DNA from: a virus
DNA length: 26,317 nucleotides
Virus record (IMG/VR): IMGVR_UViG_3300010354_008387
Coordinates: 1-26,317 of that record
Strand: one strand, 5' to 3'
Shown here piece by piece: positions 2,091 through 22,333 of this stretch. Position numbers and translations under genes: made by a program. The notes under the pieces were generated by a model. That model saw only the letters and a program-made list of their open reading frames with translations, was not told the DNA's origin and ran no database searches. The stretch's first letter is position 1, and the number at the start of each line of letters is the position of its first letter.

Positions 2091-2610
2091 TGCAGGTATA
2101 GGACTAGCATTGTCAGAAGTCTATGCAAGTCAAGGACACGAAGTAATTGGATTAAGTCGTAGGAATGGGTTTAATATTAAATCTATACCTAAACTTGTAG
2201 AACAAATAAAAGATTGTGATGTCTTTATCAATAATGCTCAATCAGGTTTTGCTCAGACCGAATTACTGTTTGCTATGTACAAAGAATGGCAAGAGAAATA
2301 TGGAAAAAAAATTATAAACATCAGTACAATGCTAACTTGTGAACCAGTTAGTTTTCTACCAGGAATAGAAATGACTGAATATTATGTTCAAAAAATAGCA
2401 TTAGAAGAGGCTGTAAAACAATTGAGATATTTTAAAAATTGGCCAAAACTGATTATGATCAAACCTGGCGCAATTGCAACGCAACCTGGACAAGAGAGTC
2501 CTCGACCTTATGCAGACCCTCGTACTTGGGCTGAAAAGATTGTACAAACTCTAGATGCCGGTAACGATTTAGAATTTTATGAATTATCTTTAACTGTAAA
2601 TTACCATTGA
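2065..2610 (+). CDS. Short-chain dehydrogenase/reductase
   Basis: This is a compact 181-aa classical-type SDR. It has the nucleotide-binding TGHSAGIG motif (residues 6-13), the NNA motif (residues 56-58), a candidate catalytic Ser87 in an IST segment, and the Tyr106-xxx-Lys110 pair. It lacks much of the C-terminal substrate loop of full-length (about 250 aa) SDRs, so the substrate is likely small or protein-bound. Members of this size occur in T4-like marine phages. SD sequence ACGAGGA precedes ATG 2065. The gene sits between two radical SAM genes and overlaps both, so oxidation or reduction of the same product is a reasonable inference. The cofactor (NAD or NADP) cannot be fixed from sequence, although SRR at residues 31-33 after strand 2 would favour NADP. 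Confidence 0.8.
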   Translation: MKIAITGHSAGIGLALSEVYASQGHEVIGLSRRNGFNIKSIPKLVEQIKDCDVFINNAQSGFAQTELLFAMYKEWQEKYGKKIINISTMLTCEPVSFLPGIEMTEYYVQKIALEEAVKQLRYFKNWPKLIMIKPGAIATQPGQESPRPYADPRTWAEKIVQTLDAGNDLEFYELSLTVNYH

Positions 2611-3749
2611 AATCTAAAGATTATTTAACAAATAAAAATTTTTGTCCTATTCCCTGGACAGGTCTAATGTACAATTTTGACGGCAGCATAAAAAACTGTA
2701 TTAGAAGTGCTGGACCAATTGGCAATATTTGCAATAACCCAATTGAGGACATTGTAAATGATAAGCCTAACATAACTACAAAGCTCAATATGATAAGCAA
2801 TCGTCCAGGCGAGCGATGCTCTCCGTGTTACGATTTAGAAAAAGGAAAAAATAGCTTTGATATAATAAGTGATAGAGTTTATTACCTTAAAGAACTAAAA
2901 AAAATAAGTTTAGATACATACAACAATGAAACAAATTTTAATTTACAAGTTGTAGATATACGTTGGTCCAATTTATGTAATTTTGCATGTGTATATTGTG
3001 GACCAGACTTCAGCAGCAGATGGGAACAAGAAAGAAGTTTGAGCATTACAACACCAAATCAAAAACAACAAATTGAATTTACTAACTATGTTATGAGCAA
3101 GGCAAGTAATCTAAAGCATGTGTATTTGGCTGGTGGTGAGCCATTGCTCATGAAACAAAATTTAGATCTATTAGATAAATTATCATCGGACGTCAATTTG
3201 CGTATCAATACTAATCTCAGCAAAACAAATACACAAATTTTTGATAAAATATGTACATTTAAAAATGTTCATTGGATTGTAAGTGTGGAATCAATTGAGG
3301 AAGAATACGAATATATTAGATATGGAGGTTCGTGGAAGGAATTTTTAGAAAATTTAAATATAATTAAAAATCTTGGGCACAAAATTTCTTTCAATATGCT
3401 GCACTTTTCACTAAATTATTTAAGTATTTTTAGATGCGTTGATTTTTTCGTCAATATGGGATTTCATTACAATAGTTTTATAATTGGGCCTTTGTTAAAC
3501 CCAATGTCTCTAAATATTAGACATTTGCCTCAGGATATGTTACACTTGACTCAGTTAGAACTGCAAAGAAGAATAAGCAGCAAACCAGGTTTTTTATATG
3601 AAAATGGATTACAGAATATACTTGACTATTTGAAAACACCATTTGACAAAGATTTAACACAAGTTTTTGATTACCTACAAGTATTAGATCAAAGACGTAA
3701 CTTAGACAGCACTAAAATTTTTAAGGAACTTTACAATTATGGCAACTAA
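2607..3749 (+). CDS. Radical SAM protein with N-terminal cysteine (twitch-like) domain, TTG start
   Basis: This 380-aa protein has CNFACVYC (CxxxCxxC, residues 124-131) for the SAM-cleaving 4Fe-4S cluster and a GGEPL motif near residue 176. An N-terminal module with FCPIPW (Cys13), Cys31, Cys42 and CSPC (Cys71, Cys74) resembles an auxiliary cluster domain placed before the core, as in the gene at 1122. The start is TTG 2607, overlapping the previous stop (TTGA); the next in-frame ATG (about 2667) would remove the conserved FCPIPW segment. The gene is very AT-rich: a hand count over 3241-3300 gives about 27% GC, against about 47% over 4261-4320 in uvsX, which hints at separate origin. Substrate unknown. 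The 3' end overlaps uvsX by 11 nt. Confidence 0.82.
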   Translation: MKSKDYLTNKNFCPIPWTGLMYNFDGSIKNCIRSAGPIGNICNNPIEDIVNDKPNITTKLNMISNRPGERCSPCYDLEKGKNSFDIISDRVYYLKELKKISLDTYNNETNFNLQVVDIRWSNLCNFACVYCGPDFSSRWEQERSLSITTPNQKQQIEFTNYVMSKASNLKHVYLAGGEPLLMKQNLDLLDKLSSDVNLRINTNLSKTNTQIFDKICTFKNVHWIVSVESIEEEYEYIRYGGSWKEFLENLNIIKNLGHKISFNMLHFSLNYLSIFRCVDFFVNMGFHYNSFIIGPLLNPMSLNIRHLPQDMLHLTQLELQRRISSKPGFLYENGLQNILDYLKTPFDKDLTQVFDYLQVLDQRRNLDSTKIFKELYNYGN

Positions 3750-7546: not shown

Positions 7547-9007
7547 ATGCGCGATCTCATAAACATTATTCTTAACGAAGTCACTCTAAGCAAGTACGGC
7601 CCTGGGCAAAAATTCATTATTAGTAACAGTGCAGTCGGACAAGAACTATCTAGTCGATTGGCTGCTTTGGGTCTAACCATAGATGGCACTATTGAACTTA
7701 CAAATAAATCCAAGGGTCTTGAATCCTTGGTCAACAAAAGCGAGATAATGACACGATTTGGTAACGGAACAGATGTATATGAATTTCGTACCGAAGACGA
7801 TGTGTATTTTTATGTGTTTGGAACAACTGGCACGATTGAAACAGCATTAAATCACAGTAAAGAAAGTTCTATAAGCAATCGCGGCGAAGTCAGTGAAGGT
7901 ATTCTTGGTGCAGCTATGTTTGCTAAATTTACAAAAAGACAACCAGGCGAAGAAGTAGGAACGATCACTTCTGCTGACATCACTAACGTTTTAGATACTC
8001 TACAATCGCAAGGTAATGATACCTATAGCGTTACAGTGAATGATGCTGATAGCGAAATTGCCGATACGATAAGTTTTGTGTTAAGATTAAAAACAGCCCC
8101 TTATCAGGACTTGATGAATCCTTTAAAACGCAAGCTTATTACAAACGAACTCAACAGTGCCGCTGCGTATGTGAACAGTGCAATGGCCGAACGATACAGT
8201 AAGTATTTCTACTTGAACGGTCGCGCTGACGAAATAAACATTATGGCAGATGGTGCCGCCAGTGAAACAGAAAAAAAATCAGATGTATGGGTAGGCATAA
8301 GAGATAAAAATGGCGCTATGCGTACCCTGAAACTCAATGCCAGTTTAAAAGTTGGCGGTGTAGCACAGTTTGGACAAGTTGGCGGTAGCGATACGGAATC
8401 TATGACCAAGCTATTTGGATACTTTGGAATCAATGTTGAACCTTATGTTGCAAAATTTGAAAACCAATACAAAAAGGATCCAATCAAGGCTGTTGAATAT
8501 ATGTACAGACAAATCACAGAAGAGTTACAATCACGACTGACCGGTAATGATGATACCGAAGAAGCCAGATTTGTTGATCAAGTGGCACAAGCTGTTACGC
8601 ACTTTGCTACACTTGGCGATCCAAATGTTGAACTTGTTGACTTTGATAAAGGCGGTTTTAAAATTTTACGATTTAAGAATCTACAATACAAACTGCGTAA
8701 CATAGATTTGACTGCAAGTTATACAGGTAAGACTAGACCTGAAATTAGCATACACGATGTTGAAAATCCAAAAAAGGAACTGATTGCAATTCGCTGCAAA
8801 GTAGAAAATAAAAAATCTGGACCTTATGTTCGTAACTATATCGAAAAAGGATCTTTACTTGAAGAAATAACCAAGGTTCAAGATCGCAGTTTCAAAGAAC
8901 TAGAAACGCCTGACCCGGAATCGACCAGAGTAAAAATAAGACCGCGGGGTAGACAAGTTGAACCTCGTGACAAAGATACAACCCCACGTCAAAAACGCGA
9001 TAAGTAA
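7547..9007 (+). CDS. Phage protein of unknown function (486 aa), possibly nuclease-like
   Basis: I cannot assign this gene. It is soluble, without signal peptide or membrane segment. The N-terminus MRDLINIILNE is typical of many marine T4-like phage proteins. A central part (about 244-280) reads KKSDVWVGIRD...LNASLKVGGVAQFGQ, and a C-terminal part reads LIAIRCKVENKKSGPYVRNYIEKGSLL. An Asp followed about 20 residues later by SLK is loosely like the PD-(D/E)xK nuclease core, but the acidic catalytic residue before the lysine is absent or shifted. I treat that as a hint only. The last 30 residues are very basic and proline-rich, which suits nucleic-acid contact or packaging in the virion. A CATAAATA motif precedes it, so late expression is likely. 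Confidence 0.7.
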   Translation: MRDLINIILNEVTLSKYGPGQKFIISNSAVGQELSSRLAALGLTIDGTIELTNKSKGLESLVNKSEIMTRFGNGTDVYEFRTEDDVYFYVFGTTGTIETALNHSKESSISNRGEVSEGILGAAMFAKFTKRQPGEEVGTITSADITNVLDTLQSQGNDTYSVTVNDADSEIADTISFVLRLKTAPYQDLMNPLKRKLITNELNSAAAYVNSAMAERYSKYFYLNGRADEINIMADGAASETEKKSDVWVGIRDKNGAMRTLKLNASLKVGGVAQFGQVGGSDTESMTKLFGYFGINVEPYVAKFENQYKKDPIKAVEYMYRQITEELQSRLTGNDDTEEARFVDQVAQAVTHFATLGDPNVELVDFDKGGFKILRFKNLQYKLRNIDLTASYTGKTRPEISIHDVENPKKELIAIRCKVENKKSGPYVRNYIEKGSLLEEITKVQDRSFKELETPDPESTRVKIRPRGRQVEPRDKDTTPRQKRDK

Positions 9008-9011
9008 AAAC

Positions 9012-9860
9012 ATGCAAAGACCTACAATGGAAATCACAACCATGATTGGTTGTTCTCTTATGTGCAATTTTTGTCCGCAAGACAATTTAAGAGAAATGTA
9101 CGGAAACGATGTCAAATATATGACTCTAGAAACATTTCAAATTGCTCTTTCGAAAGTACCAAAGAATACCAGAATAGATTTTTCAGGTATGGCAGAAGCT
9201 TGGATAAATCCAGCTGCTACAGATATGCTGGAGCATACTCTAGTATCTGGTCATAATGTTGCTATATACACTACATTATACAATTGGACTATTGAAATCG
9301 CAGAGCGTGTGGTTAAATTGCTTTATAGATATCGTGGTCAAATTGAAGTTTTTAGTGTGCATTTTCCTGATGAATACGGCAATATGAAAGGATGGAAATA
9401 CAGCATCGAATGGGAAGCTGTGTTTCACATGGTCACTGCCGCGGTGCAAGATGCAAATATTAAACTCGAGGCAATGACCATGAGTGATCATGGTAAAGTT
9501 CATAAAGACTTACAACATCTTGGTATTCAACTATATAATTGGTTTGGACACGATCGTGCTGGTAGCCTAAACAAAGAACAAGTTAAGGAACAACCGGTTC
9601 ATTTTGTAACCAAACACGAACGCCCAGTTAGTTGCAGTAAAACAGTAAATTACGATCAACATGTATTATTACCCAATGGTGATGTAGTATTATGTTGTAT
9701 GGATTATGATTTAAAACATGTGATAGGTAATTTAGTTACCAATTCGTATCAAGAGTTATTTACTGGACCACAAATGGTAAATCTTATACGAGAAAATCAA
9801 AAATCTTGTTACAGTTCAAACAGTTTATGTAAGAGTTGTACTGATGCCAAAGTGCATTGA
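9012..9860 (+). CDS. Radical SAM/SPASM-type protein
   Basis: The 282-aa product has the radical SAM motif CSLMCNFC (CxxxCxxC, residues 14-21 from the chosen start). Its C-terminal SPASM-like cysteines are in CSKTVNYDQ, the VLLPNGDVVLCC segment, CYSSNSLC and CKSC at the end. SPASM enzymes hold auxiliary Fe-S clusters and often modify peptides or sugars. The canonical GGEP motif is replaced by FSGMAEAW. ATG 9012 lies 4 bp past the previous stop; a longer reading from TTG 8958 overlaps the upstream gene and is less likely, because the conserved core starts only at about residue 7. It differs from the radical SAM genes at 1122 and 2607 in having its extra cysteines after, not before, the core. 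Substrate unknown. Confidence 0.82.
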   Translation: MQRPTMEITTMIGCSLMCNFCPQDNLREMYGNDVKYMTLETFQIALSKVPKNTRIDFSGMAEAWINPAATDMLEHTLVSGHNVAIYTTLYNWTIEIAERVVKLLYRYRGQIEVFSVHFPDEYGNMKGWKYSIEWEAVFHMVTAAVQDANIKLEAMTMSDHGKVHKDLQHLGIQLYNWFGHDRAGSLNKEQVKEQPVHFVTKHERPVSCSKTVNYDQHVLLPNGDVVLCCMDYDLKHVIGNLVTNSYQELFTGPQMVNLIRENQKSCYSSNSLCKSCTDAKVH

Positions 9861-12310: not shown

Positions 12311-13223
12311 CAAGTTCAACTTCAAACACGGCTTGAGGCTTCCATCCCAAGGCTCGTAGTTTGGAATCGTTGATACTGTAGCGTACATCTTGTCCTGGTC
12401 TAGTTATACCTAAATCCATATGATTTGCCGGATCTTCGTGTGTTGGGAAAAACATTTCACAAATCTGCATGGCAATTACAATGTTTTGTTCTTCATGATT
12501 GCCACTAATATTATAGATTTCGTTTTGTACGCCTGATTCAATAATTGTAATAATAGCCGATGCTGTATCACTGACATGCAACCAAGTGCGTCGTGGAAGC
12601 CCGGCGTCATGCAATGCAATAGGTCTACCAAGTTTTAAATGTTTGATACTCTTGGGAATAAACTTTTCAGTGTACTGACCAATGCCATAATTGTTTGTGG
12701 GTCTAACAATCACATACGGCACGCAAAATGTACGTGCCCAAGCCAAAATCAGCTGATCTGCGGCTGCTTTGGTAGCCGAATACGGATTACTGGGTTTGAG
12801 TGTGTCTGTTTCAACATGTGAGCCTTCTACAATGTCACCGTACACCTCATCGGTACTAAAGTGTAGTAGAGTAGGCATCTTGAAACGATGCCGTTCTTTG
12901 ATCAAGTTTAGTAAATGATGCACGCCATTTACATTACTACGCAAGAACACATCTGAACTGACAATGCTGTTATCAACATGAGTTTCGGCTGCTGTGTTGA
13001 TAATATAATCACAGTCGTACAGCATGTCTAAGTCATTGATATCAGATTCAATGAATTTGAATTGATTTTTGTATTCCAATAACTCCGGAAGAAATTGTAC
13101 ATTGGCGGCATAGGTCTTTTTATCAACACCAATGACGTAGTATCCTTGCGCTAAACAACGTTTGGTTACATGATAACCAATAAAGCCTAAACAGCCTGTA
13201 ACATAAACTACTTTTGTGCTCAT
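12270..13223 (-). CDS. NAD-dependent nucleotide-sugar 4,6-dehydratase/epimerase (RmlB-like)
   Basis: The 317-aa extended SDR has the NAD-binding GCLGFIG motif (residues 10-16), STDEVYG (123-129) and the catalytic Tyr148-SAT-Lys152. The TDEVYG segment and the RPTNNYG loop are typical of dTDP-glucose 4,6-dehydratases (RmlB), which make 4-keto-6-deoxy sugars. Such enzymes use the Asp-Glu pair, present here (Asp125, Glu126). The exact nucleotide sugar cannot be told. It is the last gene of a six-gene minus-strand operon and overlaps the transketolase subunit gene by 4 nt. The gene's 3' end runs 41 nt into the plus-strand DUF2452-like gene. A second RmlB-like paralogue is at 22570. Confidence 0.85.
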   Translation of the reverse strand: MSTKVVYVTGCLGFIGYHVTKRCLAQGYYVIGVDKKTYAANVQFLPELLEYKNQFKFIESDINDLDMLYDCDYIINTAAETHVDNSIVSSDVFLRSNVNGVHHLLNLIKERHRFKMPTLLHFSTDEVYGDIVEGSHVETDTLKPSNPYSATKAAADQLILAWARTFCVPYVIVRPTNNYGIGQYTEKFIPKSIKHLKLGRPIALHDAGLPRRTWLHVSDTASAIITIIESGVQNEIYNISGNHEEQNIVIAMQICEMFFPTHEDPANHMDLGITRPGQDVRYSINDSKLRALGWKPQAVFEVELVKIVDYYQQTFVW

Positions 13224-13702
13224 ATTTTTCTTGTAAGGTTAAGGTATGCAGGCTCTTGGGAACTAATAAACACCGGCCAAATATCTTCTAATTCGGCTAT
13301 GCTCTGCGGTTTGTAAACTTTAATATTTGGTAATGCTGCCAGTACCTGTTCATCATCGTGTGCCCAATGACTGATACCGTCGTGGCTGTAATCTTGGTCT
13401 CTGCCGGACCCGATCAGTTTAACTGGAATATTTTCGTAGTTGACATAGTTACGTAAAAATTCAAAAGGACGATAGAGTAAAAAACTACTCATACTATAAC
13501 AAACAGGAACAATACCTTCATTGGACATACCAACGGCTGCACCAATCATCAATTGTTCAGCTGCACCAACATTGTAAAAACGTTCAGGAAATGCATTGCG
13601 TATTTGATCTAGTATACCAAATCCCAAATCAGCAGTGATAACACGAATATCATCATTACTGACCATACTTTCTAATAGTAGGCTGGCACATTCTTTTCTC
13701 AT
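13220..13702 (-). CDS. Transketolase-like subunit, pyrimidine-binding domain (short)
   Basis: This 160-aa protein matches the pyrimidine-binding (TPP PYR) domain of transketolase/DXS-type enzymes: ITADLGFGIL, then a FYNVGAAEQLMIGAAVGMS segment carrying the TPP-activating glutamate, then FLLYRPFEFLRNYV. It ends after the PYR domain (EPAYLNLTRKI), so the C-terminal transketolase_C domain found in normal second subunits of about 300 aa is missing. Together with the gene at 13699 it would form a two-subunit thiamine-diphosphate enzyme. The 4-nt overlaps on both sides imply coupled translation. The reaction is probably transfer of a two-carbon unit to or from a sugar in glycan synthesis; this is inferred from the operon. 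Confidence 0.8.
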   Translation of the reverse strand: MRKECASLLLESMVSNDDIRVITADLGFGILDQIRNAFPERFYNVGAAEQLMIGAAVGMSNEGIVPVCYSMSSFLLYRPFEFLRNYVNYENIPVKLIGSGRDQDYSHDGISHWAHDDEQVLAALPNIKVYKPQSIAELEDIWPVFISSQEPAYLNLTRKI

Positions 13703-14328
13703 TTGATGATCTCCTGGTAGTCTTGTTCTTTAAGCACATAATAGTGTGTGAGTAATTCTTTAGCAAACGACCATTCAGGTGGATAACTATATCGTATGTT
13801 GATTCTTGGCATAAATGCAACTAGTCTCTGACTTAGAGTTATACTGTCAATCATGTCATAAGCACCCATGCCATTTAAATTAGCATATACATGTAAATTT
13901 GTAATTTTGTTATCAGTGATGTATCGCAATGATTCCCAGATACTACCTTCGGCACATTCACCGTCGCTGATCATGCAGTAAACATTCTTATCTGGACGAG
14001 CCAGTGCATGCCCAACAGCGATAGGTAGCCCTGATCCTAAACTACCAGTGCTGCAATATAAATGATTTGGTAAATCTCTGCCAGGATGAATACCGTGTTT
14101 GTGCAATAACTCTATAGGATCAACATTGTAATATTTTTCTAATACTACGTACAATGCCAACCCAGCATGCCCGTTGCTCAAAATAAAAACTTCATCGTTT
14201 TGTCGTGTACGATATATTTCTTCAATGATTGGCAACGCACTTAATGTAGAACTCAGATGACTTAGGCGTTCATGATAAGTAATATCAATCAATCTACGTT
14301 CAGTGGGAGTCATATTATTTCCAAGCAA
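13699..14328 (-). CDS. Transketolase-like subunit, TPP-binding domain
   Basis: The 209-aa protein is the thiamine-diphosphate/Mg-binding half of a transketolase. It has FILSNGHAGLALYVVL (about 47-62), the GSLGSGLPIAVGHA motif, and the TPP signature SDGECAEGSIWESLRY followed by an asparagine (NLNG) at the expected distance. Length is somewhat shorter than usual N-terminal subunits (about 270 aa). The pyrimidine-binding partner is encoded immediately downstream, overlapping by 4 nt, so the active site would be formed by both proteins. Its own start overlaps the FkbM gene by 14 nt. Split transketolases occur in bacterial polysaccharide clusters, where they may build branched or rearranged sugars; the exact product is unknown. 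Confidence 0.85.
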   Translation of the reverse strand: MLGNNMTPTERRLIDITYHERLSHLSSTLSALPIIEEIYRTRQNDEVFILSNGHAGLALYVVLEKYYNVDPIELLHKHGIHPGRDLPNHLYCSTGSLGSGLPIAVGHALARPDKNVYCMISDGECAEGSIWESLRYITDNKITNLHVYANLNGMGAYDMIDSITLSQRLVAFMPRINIRYSYPPEWSFAKELLTHYYVLKEQDYQEIIK

Positions 14329-17370: not shown

Positions 17371-17405
17371 TTGTAACACGCTTGTAATCTTTGTATGTTT
17401 AAATA
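17371..17405 (+). promoter_or_regulatory. Pho box and -10 for pstS (PhoB-type)
   Basis: TTGTAAC (17371-17377), four bases, TTGTAAT (17382-17388): 7-bp direct repeats with an 11-bp period, as in PhoB sites (consensus CTGTCAT-N4-CTGTCAT). A TAAATA -10-like element (17400-17405) follows 11 bp after the second repeat. The promoter at 19919 has the same geometry, which strengthens both. Confidence 0.78.
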
Positions 17406-17440: not shown

Positions 17441-18466
17441 ATGAAAAAACTATTAGCAGTTGTGTTTGCTGCCATGGCCTTTAGTACCAATGCAGCGGAA
17501 CTCACTGGAGCAGGAGCAACGTTTCCTTTCCCTATCTATGCCAAATGGGCAGAAGCTTACAAAGCTGCAACCGGCATTGGTTTGAATTATCAATCAATTG
17601 GATCTGGTGGTGGTATCAAACAGATAAAGGCAAAAACAGTAGACTTTGGTGCAAGTGACATGCCACTTAAACAAGAAGAACTTGACAAGGAAGGACTAAT
17701 TCAATTTCCGGCAGTGATCGGTGGTGTAGTGCCAGTATTTAATTTAGATGGTGTTGCACCAGGCCAATTAAAGTTGACACCAGAAATTATTGCAAATATT
17801 CATCTTGGTCGTATTACCAAGTGGAACGATAGAGCAATTGTAGAATTAAATGCTGGTGTGAATTTACCAGCACTCAATATTACAGTTGTACATCGTGCCG
17901 ATGGTTCGGGTACCACTTTTGTATGGACAAACTTTTTAGGTAAAGCCAATGCCGATTTTCAAAAGATTGTAGGTGAAGGCACAGCAGTAAAATGGCCAGT
18001 GGGTGTAGGCGGTAAAGGCAATGAAGGTGTGGCGGTACAAGTGCAGCGTATCAAAGGTGCCTTTGGTTATGTAGAATATGCATACGCAAAAAGAAATAAA
18101 ATCGCACATGCTCAATTACGAAATCGCGACGGTAATTTTGTACAGCCCAGCGATGACACATTCAAGGCCGCAGCAGCCAATGCAGATTGGGCCAATGCAC
18201 CAGGTATGTACTTGTTGCTGACTTGGCAAACTGGTAAAGATGCATGGCCAGCTACAGGTGCTAGTTTTATTTTAATGCACAAGCAGCAAGCCGACAGTCT
18301 GACTGGTAGGGCAGTTTTAAAATTCTTTGATTGGAGTTGGAAAAATGGTGCCAAGATGAGTGAAGAGCTGGAATACGTTCACTTACCACCAGCTGTAATT
18401 AAATTAAATCAAGACTCTTGGCGCAAAGAAATACGCGGCCCAGACGGTACTTCAATTTGGAAATAA
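17441..18466 (+). CDS. pstS: Periplasmic phosphate-binding protein PstS
   Basis: PstS captures inorganic phosphate in the periplasm for the PstCAB transporter of the host. The 341-aa product has a Sec signal peptide (MKKLLAVVFAAMAFSTNAA, cleavage about after residue 19). It also has the family landmarks GAGATFPFPIYAKW, SIGSGGGIKQI, VDFGASDMPL and RADGSGTTFVWTNFL, which contain the phosphate ligands. Wording such as GGKGNEGVAVQVQRIKGAFGYVEYAYAK is close to beta/gammaproteobacterial PstS. GGAG lies before ATG 17441, and a Pho box lies upstream, so PhoB-controlled expression during host P-starvation is expected. The porin gene follows after 9 bp in one operon. No pstCAB genes are present, so the phage protein must work with the host transporter. 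Confidence 0.96.
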   Translation: MKKLLAVVFAAMAFSTNAAELTGAGATFPFPIYAKWAEAYKAATGIGLNYQSIGSGGGIKQIKAKTVDFGASDMPLKQEELDKEGLIQFPAVIGGVVPVFNLDGVAPGQLKLTPEIIANIHLGRITKWNDRAIVELNAGVNLPALNITVVHRADGSGTTFVWTNFLGKANADFQKIVGEGTAVKWPVGVGGKGNEGVAVQVQRIKGAFGYVEYAYAKRNKIAHAQLRNRDGNFVQPSDDTFKAAAANADWANAPGMYLLLTWQTGKDAWPATGASFILMHKQQADSLTGRAVLKFFDWSWKNGAKMSEELEYVHLPPAVIKLNQDSWRKEIRGPDGTSIWK

Positions 18467-18475
18467 GGATTAGCA

Positions 18476-19882
18476 ATGAAAACATTTACAAAAATTGCAT
18501 TGGCCATTACGTTAGCTTTTAGTTTACCTGCATATGCAGACGAATATATTGATACGTTAAATATTCTACGTGATAAAGGTATTTTGACTCAACAAGAATA
18601 TGACAAAAAAATACAAGACTACGAAGAAAAAGCAGAAAATCGAAAGTTTGCCGAATCAAGAATTGATAAAGACGTCAGTGATAACAACAAGTATCGCATT
18701 GCGAGAGTCAATGACGGATCAGTCACAGAAAATGGAATCGGACTCAAAAGTAAAGATGGAAACAATACCATACAACTTACAGGTCGACTTCATATGGACT
18801 ATCGTCAGTACTCCCCGGATTACGGTACAGGTCAAACCACAGATTCGTATCAGAACCTAGCCGAAGCACGCCGTGCCAGATTTGGTGTACGTGGACAGTT
18901 TGCCAAAGACTTCAAGTATCAGCTGTTAGCCAACTTTGGTGCCAGTGACGGATTTAGTAGCACTTCAAGTACTGCCGACGAAATGTGGGTAAACTGGGCT
19001 GCTAATCCTGAAATGCAATTTCAATTTGGCCTGTTCAAAATGCCATTCAGTTTAGAACAAATGACCAGTTCAAACAATTTAGATTTCATGGAACGTAGTT
19101 TAATTGGTCAAAATGATACTGAATTTATTCCTGCAAAGGAAACTGGCTTTATGCTACACGGTGTGCCCAAACCTGGATTGACCTACGCATTAGCCCTGAG
19201 CAGAGGCAAATCAAATAAAGATGCTATCAATGATGGCTTTGATTATATTGGACGCATAACAACCAACATTGCTGAACTAACCGGAAGCAAAGCTTACACT
19301 GCTCACATAGGTGCAGCATACAGTGTAGGTGATATCAAAAGCGGAGTGATCCCTGCCAGTGGTAGAACCGAGGCTAGAACTCAGTCCGGATGGTTTACCG
19401 GATCTGCACTAAGTGGAATAACATCAAGAACACGTCAAGGACTAGAAGCTGCATTTGCTTACAATGCATTAAAAGTGCAGGCAGAACAGTTCAATTTTGT
19501 TTATGATCCTACCACAGGTTCAAATCAAGAAATTCGAGGTCATTATGTGCAAGCTGTATACAATCTAACCGGTGAAAGTCATGCTTACAAAGATGGCACA
19601 TTTGGTTGGATTAAGCCAGCCAACAGTGTAGACAAAGGTGGTCGTGGTGCCTGGCAAGTGGGTGTGCGTATGAGTGAGTTTGATGCTAGTGATATCACTG
19701 TGGCCACAGGCAAAGCCAATCGTGCCACTGCAATGACCTACGGCATCACTTGGTTTGCAACAGACAATCTACGCTTCATGCTCAACTACAGCGATACCAA
19801 GTTTGACAGCCTGGTAGGCAGCTCTGGCAGTAGAGTAAATGGTGAAAAAGCAGTGATGTTCAGAAGTCAATTAAGCTTCTAA
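18476..19882 (+). CDS. Phosphate-selective porin (OprP/OprO-like)
   Basis: The 468-aa product has a signal peptide ending AYA (cleavage about after residue 21). Next come a helical, coiled-coil-like start (YIDTLNILRDKGILTQQEYDKK), a long beta-rich region and a C-terminal phenylalanine (FRSQLSF), which is the outer-membrane-protein sorting signal. The segments IQLTGRLHMDYRQYSPD, RRARFGVRGQF, FGLFKMPFSLEQMTSSNNLDFMERS and VQAVYNLTGE are typical of the phosphate-selective porin O/P family. It would form a 16-strand channel letting phosphate into the periplasm, where PstS picks it up. It shares the Pho-box promoter with pstS (9-bp gap, AAGGA before the ATG) and ends with a strong terminator. An outer-membrane porin is a rare phage cargo. 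Confidence 0.9.
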   Translation: MKTFTKIALAITLAFSLPAYADEYIDTLNILRDKGILTQQEYDKKIQDYEEKAENRKFAESRIDKDVSDNNKYRIARVNDGSVTENGIGLKSKDGNNTIQLTGRLHMDYRQYSPDYGTGQTTDSYQNLAEARRARFGVRGQFAKDFKYQLLANFGASDGFSSTSSTADEMWVNWAANPEMQFQFGLFKMPFSLEQMTSSNNLDFMERSLIGQNDTEFIPAKETGFMLHGVPKPGLTYALALSRGKSNKDAINDGFDYIGRITTNIAELTGSKAYTAHIGAAYSVGDIKSGVIPASGRTEARTQSGWFTGSALSGITSRTRQGLEAAFAYNALKVQAEQFNFVYDPTTGSNQEIRGHYVQAVYNLTGESHAYKDGTFGWIKPANSVDKGGRGAWQVGVRMSEFDASDITVATGKANRATAMTYGITWFATDNLRFMLNYSDTKFDSLVGSSGSRVNGEKAVMFRSQLSF

Positions 19883-19890
19883 AAAAATAC

Positions 19891-19912
19891 AAGCCCCGAA
19901 AGGGGCTTTTTT
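19891..19912 (+). terminator. Rho-independent terminator after the porin gene
   Basis: AAGCCCC / GAAA tetraloop / GGGGCTT followed by a run of six T, 8 bp past the porin stop. It closes the pstS-porin operon. The next Pho box begins only 7 bp further on. Confidence 0.93.
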
Positions 19913-19918
19913 GTGGCC

Positions 19919-19953
19919 GTGTAATGGATTTGTAATCTTGCTGACATTAAATA
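19919..19953 (+). promoter_or_regulatory. Pho box (three repeats) and -10 for the PlcP-like gene
   Basis: GTGTAAT (19919-19925), TTGTAAT (19930-19936) and CTGACAT (19941-19947) repeat every 11 bp; the last is one base off the E. coli half-site CTGTCAT. TAAATA (19948-19953) follows 11 bp after the second repeat, exactly as upstream of pstS. The ATG at 19959 is then 5 bp from the -10, which would give a leaderless or very short-leader transcript. Confidence 0.78.
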
Positions 19954-19958
19954 ATTGT

Positions 19959-20747
19959 ATGACAAGAACATACCGTAGCATTTTTATCAGCGATGTTCAC
20001 CTAGGCACTAAAGATTGTAAAGCAGAAGCACTCAATAATTTTTTGAAACACAACACCTGTGAAACTCTTTATCTAGTAGGTGATATTATTGACGCTTGGA
20101 AGATTAAACAAAACAAGTGGCGCTGGAAGCAGAGTCACACCAATGTGGTGCGTAGAATCATGGGTCATGCCAAAAGAAAAACTAGAGTGATTTATGTGTT
20201 AGGCAATCATGATGAATTTTTAAGACCATATTTGCAGTACAATTTGAATTTTGGTATGATAGAGTTGCACAATCATTTTGAACATATTGGAGCAGATGGA
20301 CGCAGGTATCTTGTAGTACACGGAGACATGTTTGACGGTATTACTAGACTGGCACCCTGGTTAAACTTTTTGGGAGACAAGGCATACGATGCTATATTAT
20401 CAATCAATAGTAAGTTCAATTGGATCTTACATAGAGTGGGTATTGGCTATTTTAGTCTTAGTCGTTTCCTTAAGCACAAAGTGAAACGAGCAGTTGACTT
20501 TATTTTTCAATTTGAAAATAATCTCGCTGCCTATTGTAAAAAACGTGGCTTCGATGGTGTGATCTGCGGACACATCCATCACGCAGAAATCAAAGAGATT
20601 GATGGTATCATTTACATGAATGATGGTGATTGGGTGGAATCTCTTACAGCCCTGGTAGAACATTATGATGGCAAGTGGGAAATAGTGACATGGACACAGG
20701 ACAAAGATAATGTGGTTGATGATATTGATAGCTGTACACATCAATGA
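19959..20747 (+). CDS. PlcP-like metallophosphoesterase (candidate phospholipase C, lipid remodelling)
   Basis: The 262-aa calcineurin-like phosphoesterase has all metal-site motifs: SDVHLG (11-16), GDIIDAW (41-47), GNHDE (82-86), HGD (121-123) and GHIHH (204-208). It is usually annotated as UDP-2,3-diacylglucosamine pyrophosphatase (LpxH-like). However, the phrases LVGDIID, YVLGNHDEFLRP, VVHGDMFD, DGVICGHIHHAEI and GDWVES resemble PlcP, the phospholipase C that P-starved alphaproteobacteria and marine bacteria use to strip head groups from phospholipids. A Pho box directly upstream favours PlcP over LpxH, since lipid A synthesis is not P-induced. I chose ATG 19959; an in-frame TTG at 19911 would run through the Pho box and terminator. 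A small ORF and a glycosyltransferase follow in overlap. Confidence 0.85.
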   Translation: MTRTYRSIFISDVHLGTKDCKAEALNNFLKHNTCETLYLVGDIIDAWKIKQNKWRWKQSHTNVVRRIMGHAKRKTRVIYVLGNHDEFLRPYLQYNLNFGMIELHNHFEHIGADGRRYLVVHGDMFDGITRLAPWLNFLGDKAYDAILSINSKFNWILHRVGIGYFSLSRFLKHKVKRAVDFIFQFENNLAAYCKKRGFDGVICGHIHHAEIKEIDGIIYMNDGDWVESLTALVEHYDGKWEIVTWTQDKDNVVDDIDSCTHQ

Positions 20748-20883
20748 CACTCGAGACGTTCCAGGAAAAATAATCTTGGAGTTTACAGACCAAGCCACGT
20801 GTGAACAAAGTCTTTCCACATTGTCATATTGGCTGAAATTTAAAGACTTTCGCGTTGAAGGCAAGTGTGTTAAAAAAACATGA
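20710..20883 (+). CDS. Small hypothetical protein (57 aa) between PlcP-like and GT2 genes
   Basis: This short ORF starts MWLMILIAVHINDTRDVPGK and continues with ILEFTDQATCEQSLSTLSYW and a basic C-terminus. It overlaps the end of the PlcP-like gene by 38 nt and ends in an ATGA overlap with the glycosyltransferase start, so translation passes directly from one to the other. AGGA lies 8 bp before ATG 20710. The first nine residues are hydrophobic but too few for a membrane helix. Predicted fold: strand, strand, helix, strand. No family is recognised. Its tight placement suggests a partner or regulator of the lipid module, or a bridge that keeps the operon translated. Confidence 0.62.
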   Translation: MWLMILIAVHINDTRDVPGKIILEFTDQATCEQSLSTLSYWLKFKDFRVEGKCVKKT

Positions 20884-21593
20884 AAAAATTAAGTGAAAAA
20901 ATAACTATTGTGATTCCTTGTAAAAACGAGGAAAATTATATCGTACGACTGCTAGATAGTCTACGTAGACAAAGAATTGGTGATACAAGAATTATTATTG
21001 CTGATTGCAGCACAGACAATACTAGGCAGGTGATAAAGCAAAATCAAGCTTTTTTAAATGTGGAAATCATTGATGGTGGTCCGGTGGCAGCGGCCAGAAA
21101 TCGTGCAGCTCAAATGGTAGCGACTCCTTATATTTTGTTCATTGATGCCGATGTGATACTGTTTGATGATTACACTATTCGCGACGCTGTGGATGAATTA
21201 GAATTTTATAATCTTGATTTGGTTACAGCCAACATCAGATGCTACGACAACAATAAAAAAACTGCCACGGGCTTTGCAATTTTCAACCTAGTAAACAACA
21301 TCCTTAAGCATTTTTCTCCATTTGCTGTAGGTGCTTTCATGTTGACTCGTGCGGACAAGTTTAGAGAGTTTGGGTGTTTCAATGAAAAATACAGCACATC
21401 CGAAGACTATTTTTTGAGTAGAATGTACAGCCCCAAGAAGTTTAAAATAATTGATCATTATTTTGGCCAAGACTCGCGAAGATTCGTTAAAATGGGTTAT
21501 TTTGGTATGGCAGCATATCTGATTAAAAATTTCATCAATCGCAACAACAAGGCCTACTGGGACAGATTAGATCACAACAAATACTGGAGTTAA
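20880..21593 (+). CDS. Glycosyltransferase family 2, candidate lipid glycosyltransferase
   Basis: The 237-aa product is a GT-A-fold family 2 enzyme: IPCKNEE (12-18), a GGPVAAARNRAA segment (66-77), the metal-binding DAD (89-91), and SEDYFLSR (174-181) carrying the catalytic-base region. A hydrophobic stretch around residues 131-156 (FNLVNNILKHFSPFAVGAFML) could sit on the membrane surface. It is linked through overlaps to the PlcP-like gene behind a Pho box. In P-starved bacteria PlcP makes diacylglycerol, which a glycosyltransferase converts to glycolipid; this gene could be that partner. The pairing is inferred from context: known bacterial partners are not all GT2, and a glycan role remains possible. 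Confidence 0.82.
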   Translation: MKKLSEKITIVIPCKNEENYIVRLLDSLRRQRIGDTRIIIADCSTDNTRQVIKQNQAFLNVEIIDGGPVAAARNRAAQMVATPYILFIDADVILFDDYTIRDAVDELEFYNLDLVTANIRCYDNNKKTATGFAIFNLVNNILKHFSPFAVGAFMLTRADKFREFGCFNEKYSTSEDYFLSRMYSPKKFKIIDHYFGQDSRRFVKMGYFGMAAYLIKNFINRNNKAYWDRLDHNKYWS

Positions 21594-21635: not shown

Positions 21636-21636
21636 A

Positions 21637-21658
21637 AAGACCCTAGCGGGTCTTTTTT
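21637..21658 (+). terminator. Rho-independent terminator after the PlcP-GT2 operon
   Basis: AAGACCC / TAGC loop / GGGTCTT followed by a T run (to 21658), 43 bases after the glycosyltransferase stop. It ends the second Pho-controlled unit; a late-type promoter starts 6 bp further. Confidence 0.92.
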
Positions 21659-21688: not shown

Positions 21689-22333
21689 ATGACACTCCCT
21701 ACAATAGCCGTTTTTATTCATCAACCACGCTGTTCTGTGCAATGTGCAAACGGAATAATTCGGGCATTGTTGCCTTATTACAAATTCAAAATCTTTACCA
21801 AACACGAAATTGAAGAAGATTTTTTTGATGATGTAGATCTGGTAGTGTTTCCAGGAGGTGATGGTGCTAGCGATGATTATGATCATTTGCTGCGTAATCA
21901 TGCTCAACGAATACGTAATTATGTGGCCTCCGGCGGAAAATATCTAGGTATCTGTATGGGAGCATATTGGGCTGACACAGATTACTTTGGTTTACTTAAC
22001 AATGTTAGAGCAGTGCAGTATATCACACAACCTAATTCCTGTACACGCAGACCACATGCAAAAGCTATGCCTGTGACTTGGCTTGGTGAACAAATCAAAA
22101 TGTACTTTTATGATGGGTGTGCCTTGGTTGGAGATAAATCACAGTTTGAAACTTTGGCCACTTATTCAAACGGCGACCCAATGGCAATTATACAAGGTAA
22201 TGTTGGTCTAATAGGATGTCATCCCGAAGCGGAAGCAAATTGGTACACTGTGCATTCCTGGATGAAGAAAGAATGGCATGGCGGTCAGCATGATCTATTG
22301 CTCAATTTTGTCAACTATTTTATGAAGAAATAA
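21689..22333 (+). CDS. Class I glutamine-amidotransferase-like protein (BPL_N type)
   Basis: The 214-aa product has a flavodoxin-like/GATase fold pattern: VDLVVFPGGDGASDDY (about 51-66), RNYVASGGKYLGICMGAYWA with the nucleophile-elbow Cys (about 74-93), and a later GCHPEAEANW with the histidine-glutamate pair (about 174-183). This combination matches the domain fused to eukaryotic biotin protein ligases (BPL_N), of which stand-alone bacterial and phage forms exist. Its reaction is unknown; it lacks any synthetase partner here. No Shine-Dalgarno is evident at ATG 21689. It has its own late-type promoter and a sigma70-type promoter follows it, so it is likely a one-gene unit. Confidence 0.75.
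   Translation: MTLPTIAVFIHQPRCSVQCANGIIRALLPYYKFKIFTKHEIEEDFFDDVDLVVFPGGDGASDDYDHLLRNHAQRIRNYVASGGKYLGICMGAYWADTDYFGLLNNVRAVQYITQPNSCTRRPHAKAMPVTWLGEQIKMYFYDGCALVGDKSQFETLATYSNGDPMAIIQGNVGLIGCHPEAEANWYTVHSWMKKEWHGGQHDLLLNFVNYFMKK

Follow-up and report, generated by a model that had tools for sequence, protein, structure and literature searches.

A candidate phospholipid-to-glycolipid operon behind a Pho-box-like site in a T4-like freshwater phage

Operons of plcP and agt have been described in several bacteria, including Sinorhizobium, Phaeobacter, Pelagibacter, Pseudomonas and Methylosinus (PMC4796936, PMC9239053, PMC8231724). The locus examined here shares with them a gene for a PlcP-type phosphoesterase followed by one for a glycosyltransferase, a putative Pho box and nearby phosphate genes, but it lies on a T4-like phage, a 237-aa GT2 enzyme replaces the ~334-aa GT4 enzyme Agt, and a conserved 57-aa ORF sits in between. 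It is a phage version of the bacterial system, whose own loci have not shown a glycosyltransferase of this type. Among phages, a related case is that of cyanophages, for which Zeng and Chisholm reportedly described PstS and other Pho-controlled auxiliary genes in 2012. Both cases appear to be phage phosphate genes under host PhoB-type control, but the cyanophage genes serve phosphate uptake, whereas the unit described here is predicted to draw phosphate from membrane lipid and to replace that lipid. Phage genes for phosphate uptake are already known; rebuilding the host membrane for its phosphorus would be a new form of host takeover. A search of the open-access literature, with most subscription journals and preprints outside its coverage, found no report of a phage plcP. 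A viral metatranscriptome from Lake Baikal includes one 'lpxH' among its auxiliary genes (PMC9611531), which is plausibly the phage plcP family under a database name.

The window, meaning the whole 26.3-kb stretch of DNA that was analyzed, and the features of the locus are given in Table 1. T4-type core genes in the window encode a UvsX-like recombinase (E 1e-69) and a gp32-type ssDNA-binding protein, and of the long related contigs, 14 in number, 7 have a Gp23 capsid match above cut-off, so that by gene content the virus is a T4-like phage, of freshwater. Since the best matches of its PstS (~55–67%) come from Burkholderiales and Methylophilaceae, the host is probably Gram-negative and betaproteobacterial, which is as fine a placement as PstS gave.

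Table 1. Source of the window and position of the features discussed in the text.
Feature	Position	Strand	Evidence or remark
IMG/VR virus record IMGVR_UViG_3300010354_008387, 26.3 kb (source)	1-26,317		
Two-unit Pho-box-like site TTGTAACACGCTTGTAAT upstream of pstS	17371..17388	+	score 13.3
PstS, phosphate-binding protein of high-affinity phosphate transporter	17441..18466	+	NF008171 equivalog 418 bits (cut-off 339); phrog_5385
Phosphate-selective porin O/P family outer-membrane protein	18476..19882	+	PF07396, E 1e-49
Terminator-like hairpin after porin gene	19891..19908	+	7-pair stem, T run
Three-unit Pho-box-like site GTGTAAT-GGAT-TTGTAAT-CTTG-CTGACAT	19919..19947	+	11 nt before plcP start codon
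PlcP-like metallophosphoesterase, 262 aa	19959..20747	+	PF00149, E 1e-12; trees, motif, context
Conserved 57-aa protein	20710..20883	+	relatives in 141 viral loci; pN/pS
GT2 glycosyltransferase, 237 aa, GT-A fold	20880..21593	+	PF00535, E 7e-23
Terminator-like hairpin closing plcP-GT2 unit	21636..21655	+	8-pair stem, T run

A first-pass annotation of this DNA had read the phosphoesterase as PlcP-like with intact metal motifs, and all eight metal-motif residues (D12, H14, D42, N83, H84, H121, H205 and H207) proved invariant across an alignment of 31 sequences. Structure prediction (pLDDT 78) gave a metallophosphoesterase fold capped by two helices, the cap itself being of low confidence, and the nearest PDB folds are those of LpxH at ~20% identity. 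An LpxH-type fold with a helical cap fits a lipid substrate. LpxH shares this fold, the cap and the metal motifs with the window protein, and public annotations of the relatives read 'UDP-2,3-diacylglucosamine hydrolase' or 'diphosphatase', both of which would suit a virus-encoded LpxH supplying lipid X to lipid A synthesis and thereby altering the host LPS. Grouping with LpxH is also what the first-pass annotation had named as the outcome that would speak against its own reading. The window protein, however, scores 46 bits on the LpxH equivalog model, about a third of the cut-off of 134, and contains GNHDE. GNHD was found in 80 of 80 viral and 80 of 80 bacterial relatives and GNRDF in 12 of 12 LpxH, the bacterial set having been retrieved by PlcP-type peptide patterns and thus pre-selected for likeness, and LpxH independently by the LpxH model. 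In the tree a branch with 100% SH-aLRT separates the 12 bona fide LpxH from every PlcP-like protein, and the split recurs when Rhizobiaceae and Pseudomonadaceae homologues are added, which are 45–59% identical to the window protein and fall on its side. A scan of bacterial genomes gave relatives 50–56% identical, mostly from Beta- and Alphaproteobacteria; true LpxH is a separate gene (219–315 bits) in 12 of the 18 genomes that hold such a relative, and the remaining six have no LpxH above the cut-off. Score, motif, tree and co-occurrence with true LpxH led us to reject LpxH identity, and we consider a viral LpxH very improbable. Membership in PlcP is supported by clade and context, the protein being placed beside families that contain characterized PlcPs (Rhizobiaceae and Pseudomonadaceae).

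The bacterial surroundings point the same way as the clade, as an Agt-like GT4 gene was present in 56 of 80 bacterial loci, nearly always directly downstream of the plcP-like gene, and in 8 of 10 Pseudomonadaceae loci. These bacterial GT4 proteins are clearly related to the GT4 of phages (mostly 34–46% identical) and match Agt, the SAR11 diacylglycerol glycosyltransferase, in length and motifs (PMC8231724), and the gene order agrees with that of the plcP-agt operons in the literature (PMC4796936, PMC9239053, PMC8231724). None of the 80 bacterial plcP-like genes had a window-type GT2 beside it. The window phosphoesterase is predicted to be a phospholipase C that cleaves phosphatidylethanolamine (PE) or phosphatidylglycerol (PG) to diacylglycerol. 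It could instead act on phosphatidic acid, glycerophosphodiesters or nucleotides in an operon for plain phosphate salvage, as the metallophosphoesterase superfamily is broad and PstS, porin and Pho box are all linked to phosphate. We regard this as improbable given the 45–59% identity to bacterial genes that often lie beside an Agt-like diacylglycerol glycosyltransferase, the LpxH-like helical cap, and the constant glycosyltransferase partner in phages.

The ORF positions and the coupling of phosphoesterase to GT2 by overlaps were confirmed as first described, with the coupling running through the 57-aa ORF, which overlaps the end of plcP by 38 nt and is itself overlapped by the GT2 start by 4 nt. 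Terminator-like hairpins flank the three-gene unit on both sides, though the region as a whole is not richer in such hairpins than chance predicts (5 against 4.0). Each gene is under purifying selection, with pN/pS of 0.11–0.17 for plcP, 0.22–0.30 for the 57-aa ORF and 0.19–0.25 for GT2. The 57-aa protein has a hydrophobic N-terminus (MWLMILIAVH) and two conserved cysteines, gave no match in Pfam, NCBIfam or PHROG, and is represented by 100 distinct sequences among its viral loci; it may be a partner protein for the operon or its membrane anchor.

The PhoB pattern consists of 7-mers separated by 4-nt gaps. Our scoring matrix was built by us around the known PhoB consensus, which makes absolute scores rough, and all controls were run on the same matrix. 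A Pho box before the phosphoesterase had been noticed earlier and was borne out, as the three-unit site scores 20.4, the highest of any three-unit site on either strand of the window, and the 95th percentile of shuffled-window maxima is 16.2. A chance origin of this site was rejected on the shuffled windows. The two-unit site before pstS falls within the whole-window chance range (null 95% 17.1) and is not significant by itself. A two-unit Pho-like site lies upstream of plcP in 31.5% of 222 phage genes and upstream of pstS in 68% of 28, compared with a rate of 1.2% in 741 other intergenic regions, and changing the gap upstream of plcP to 2, 3, 5, 6 or 7 nt gave 0–1.8% as opposed to 31.5% for 4 nt. 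The phage-borne porin lies directly after PstS and would pass phosphate through the outer membrane to it; the porin had no PHROG match, and no paper on such a phage-borne porin was found.

The GT2 model (pLDDT 75) has a GT-A fold; its nearest solved folds, TarP, TarS and WrtF among them, are those of generic GT2 enzymes. Its best NCBIfam match is an arsenosugar glycosyltransferase, far below cut-off, and family and fold searches gave no signal for a lipid acceptor. The possible membrane-facing hydrophobic patch that the first-pass annotation saw in this protein did not hold up: the 19-mer of highest hydrophobicity starts at residue 77 (mean KD 1.5), where it spans one of the core strands of the GT-A fold. 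With no transmembrane segment found, a membrane-anchored GT2 was rejected. Membership in the Agt family was likewise rejected, the protein being GT2 with a GT-A fold rather than GT4 with GT-B, and the Agt set of GT-B fold, GT4 domain, His104 and FPSxTDTFG was not found in it. No cellular relatives were detected at E 1e-20 in 120 genomes of Limnohabitans' order, a search run with no positive control. Since the GT2 is neither Agt nor of Agt's GT4 family, it is the genomic context that points to diacylglycerol as its predicted acceptor, namely the link to plcP and the mutual exclusivity with an Agt-like GT4.

The plcP-like gene occurs on at least 587 related IMG/VR contigs; the module is common in aquatic phages and hidden in databases as LpxH. 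In most phage loci plcP is followed by the 57-aa ORF and then by either GT2 or an Agt-like GT4. Four scans, anchored on two plcP genes, the GT2 and the GT4, together gave 238 distinct phage plcP genes; GT4 followed in 129, GT2 in 82, both in none and neither in 11, with 16 on contigs too short to tell; it is important to note that these counts come from the best 80 matches per scan and represent samples of close relatives, not a census. Among the best 80 matches with enough upstream sequence, 74 of 74 GT2 relatives and 76 of 76 GT4 relatives have plcP within 2.5 kb upstream. The tree built from 157 labelled plcP genes requires at least 36 changes between GT2 and GT4 (shuffled mean about 54), of which 9–10 are forced by well-supported branches. 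By position, then, GT2 and the Agt-like GT4 are alternatives for one slot, and the fact that they never occur together and have been swapped so often points to one shared role. With a looser threshold, Pho-like sites precede 40% of GT2 loci, 45% of GT4 loci and none of the loci with neither.

It is possible that the PlcP reading is right and that the GT2 nevertheless glycosylates another acceptor, such as a surface glycan of the host, an undecaprenyl-linked sugar or phage DNA, with co-transcription as the sole link between the two genes. The generic fold, the best structural matches that act on polymers, the viral protein that comes closest in fold (by annotation an undecaprenol-linked glucosyltransferase) and the several other sugar enzymes encoded in the window, which would fit a surface-glycan role, are all in line with this. 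We consider it rather unlikely, as it does not account for GT2 relatives that always lie behind plcP and never alongside an Agt-like GT4, or for the repeated swaps. In the phage GT4 copies the YHTKFPE region of Agt is retained, His104 included. At the position of Asp256, however, most of them carry Glu, and this same change cut the activity of SAR11 Agt by over 90% (PMC8231724), so that even the phage GT4 is no more than a candidate Agt.

Most loci with neither glycosyltransferase are of the type of Pelagibacter phage Mosig EXVC030M (MT647606), an isolated phage. Like the window, Mosig has a plcP-like gene (47% identical, annotated as UDP-2,3-diacylglucosamine hydrolase), but unlike the window it has no GT2 or Agt-like GT4 after it. 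SAR11 hosts have been reported to have agt (PMC8231724), and for this reason plcP alone may suffice in Mosig-type phages. The Mosig plcP relative (L082:7992-8910) overlaps a small ORF that contains a hydrophobic stretch but has no sequence kinship with the 57-aa ORF of the window. A divergent phosphate-transporter gene adjoins the Mosig plcP relative.

Taken together, we read the locus as a PhoB-controlled phage operon that would convert phospholipid to glycolipid, with GT2 standing in for Agt, and give this a probability of about 0.68; kinship of the phosphoesterase with PlcP, taken by itself, deserves a higher confidence. During infection of a phosphate-starved Gram-negative host, the host's PhoB would act at the Pho box and switch on the phage unit. 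The phage PlcP, predicted to be metal-dependent with a helical cap that holds lipid, would then cut PE or PG to diacylglycerol and a phospho-headgroup, and GT2 would use a nucleotide sugar to glycosylate the diacylglycerol; the resulting glycolipid, free of phosphorus, would keep the membrane intact. In sister phages an Agt-like GT4 takes the slot of GT2. The headgroup phosphate could feed phage DNA synthesis beside phosphate imported with the phage PstS and porin. Lipid remodelling by PlcP and a glycosyltransferase was the proposal of the first-pass annotation, and it is supported by the bacterial relatives beside an Agt-like gene, the sister phages with Agt-like GT4 and the recurring Pho box. 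Its suggestion of freed phosphate needs amending: PlcP would release the phospho-headgroup, so a further host phosphatase or use of glycerol-3-phosphate would be needed. Phospholipid makes up one of a small cell's larger reserves of phosphorus, so by a rough estimate the supply is of the right order for phage DNA.

As inversion is usual among GT2 enzymes, a beta-linked glycolipid could be expected from GT2 as opposed to an alpha-linked one from Agt. We give even odds to the further idea that the window GT2 defines a phage-specific family of enzymes that glycosylate diacylglycerol, have no kinship with Agt, repeatedly took its place in phage plcP operons and make a beta-linked glycolipid. If this is true, the sugar headgroups that the host membrane receives would differ from phage to phage. 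Lipid-swapping phages would also tie the glycolipids that have been measured in waters poor in phosphate to viral infection.

Other genes in the window were also observed. A BPL_N/glutamine-amidotransferase-like protein is encoded at 21689-22333, and many phage loci have a relative of it close to plcP. Two radical-SAM proteins (PHROG matches) and one SPASM protein lie at 1122-2090, 2607-3749 and 8958-9860 on this single 26-kb record. A transketolase-like enzyme is present as two adjacent genes at 13220-14328 on the minus strand, one for the TPP-binding half and one for the pyrimidine-binding half.
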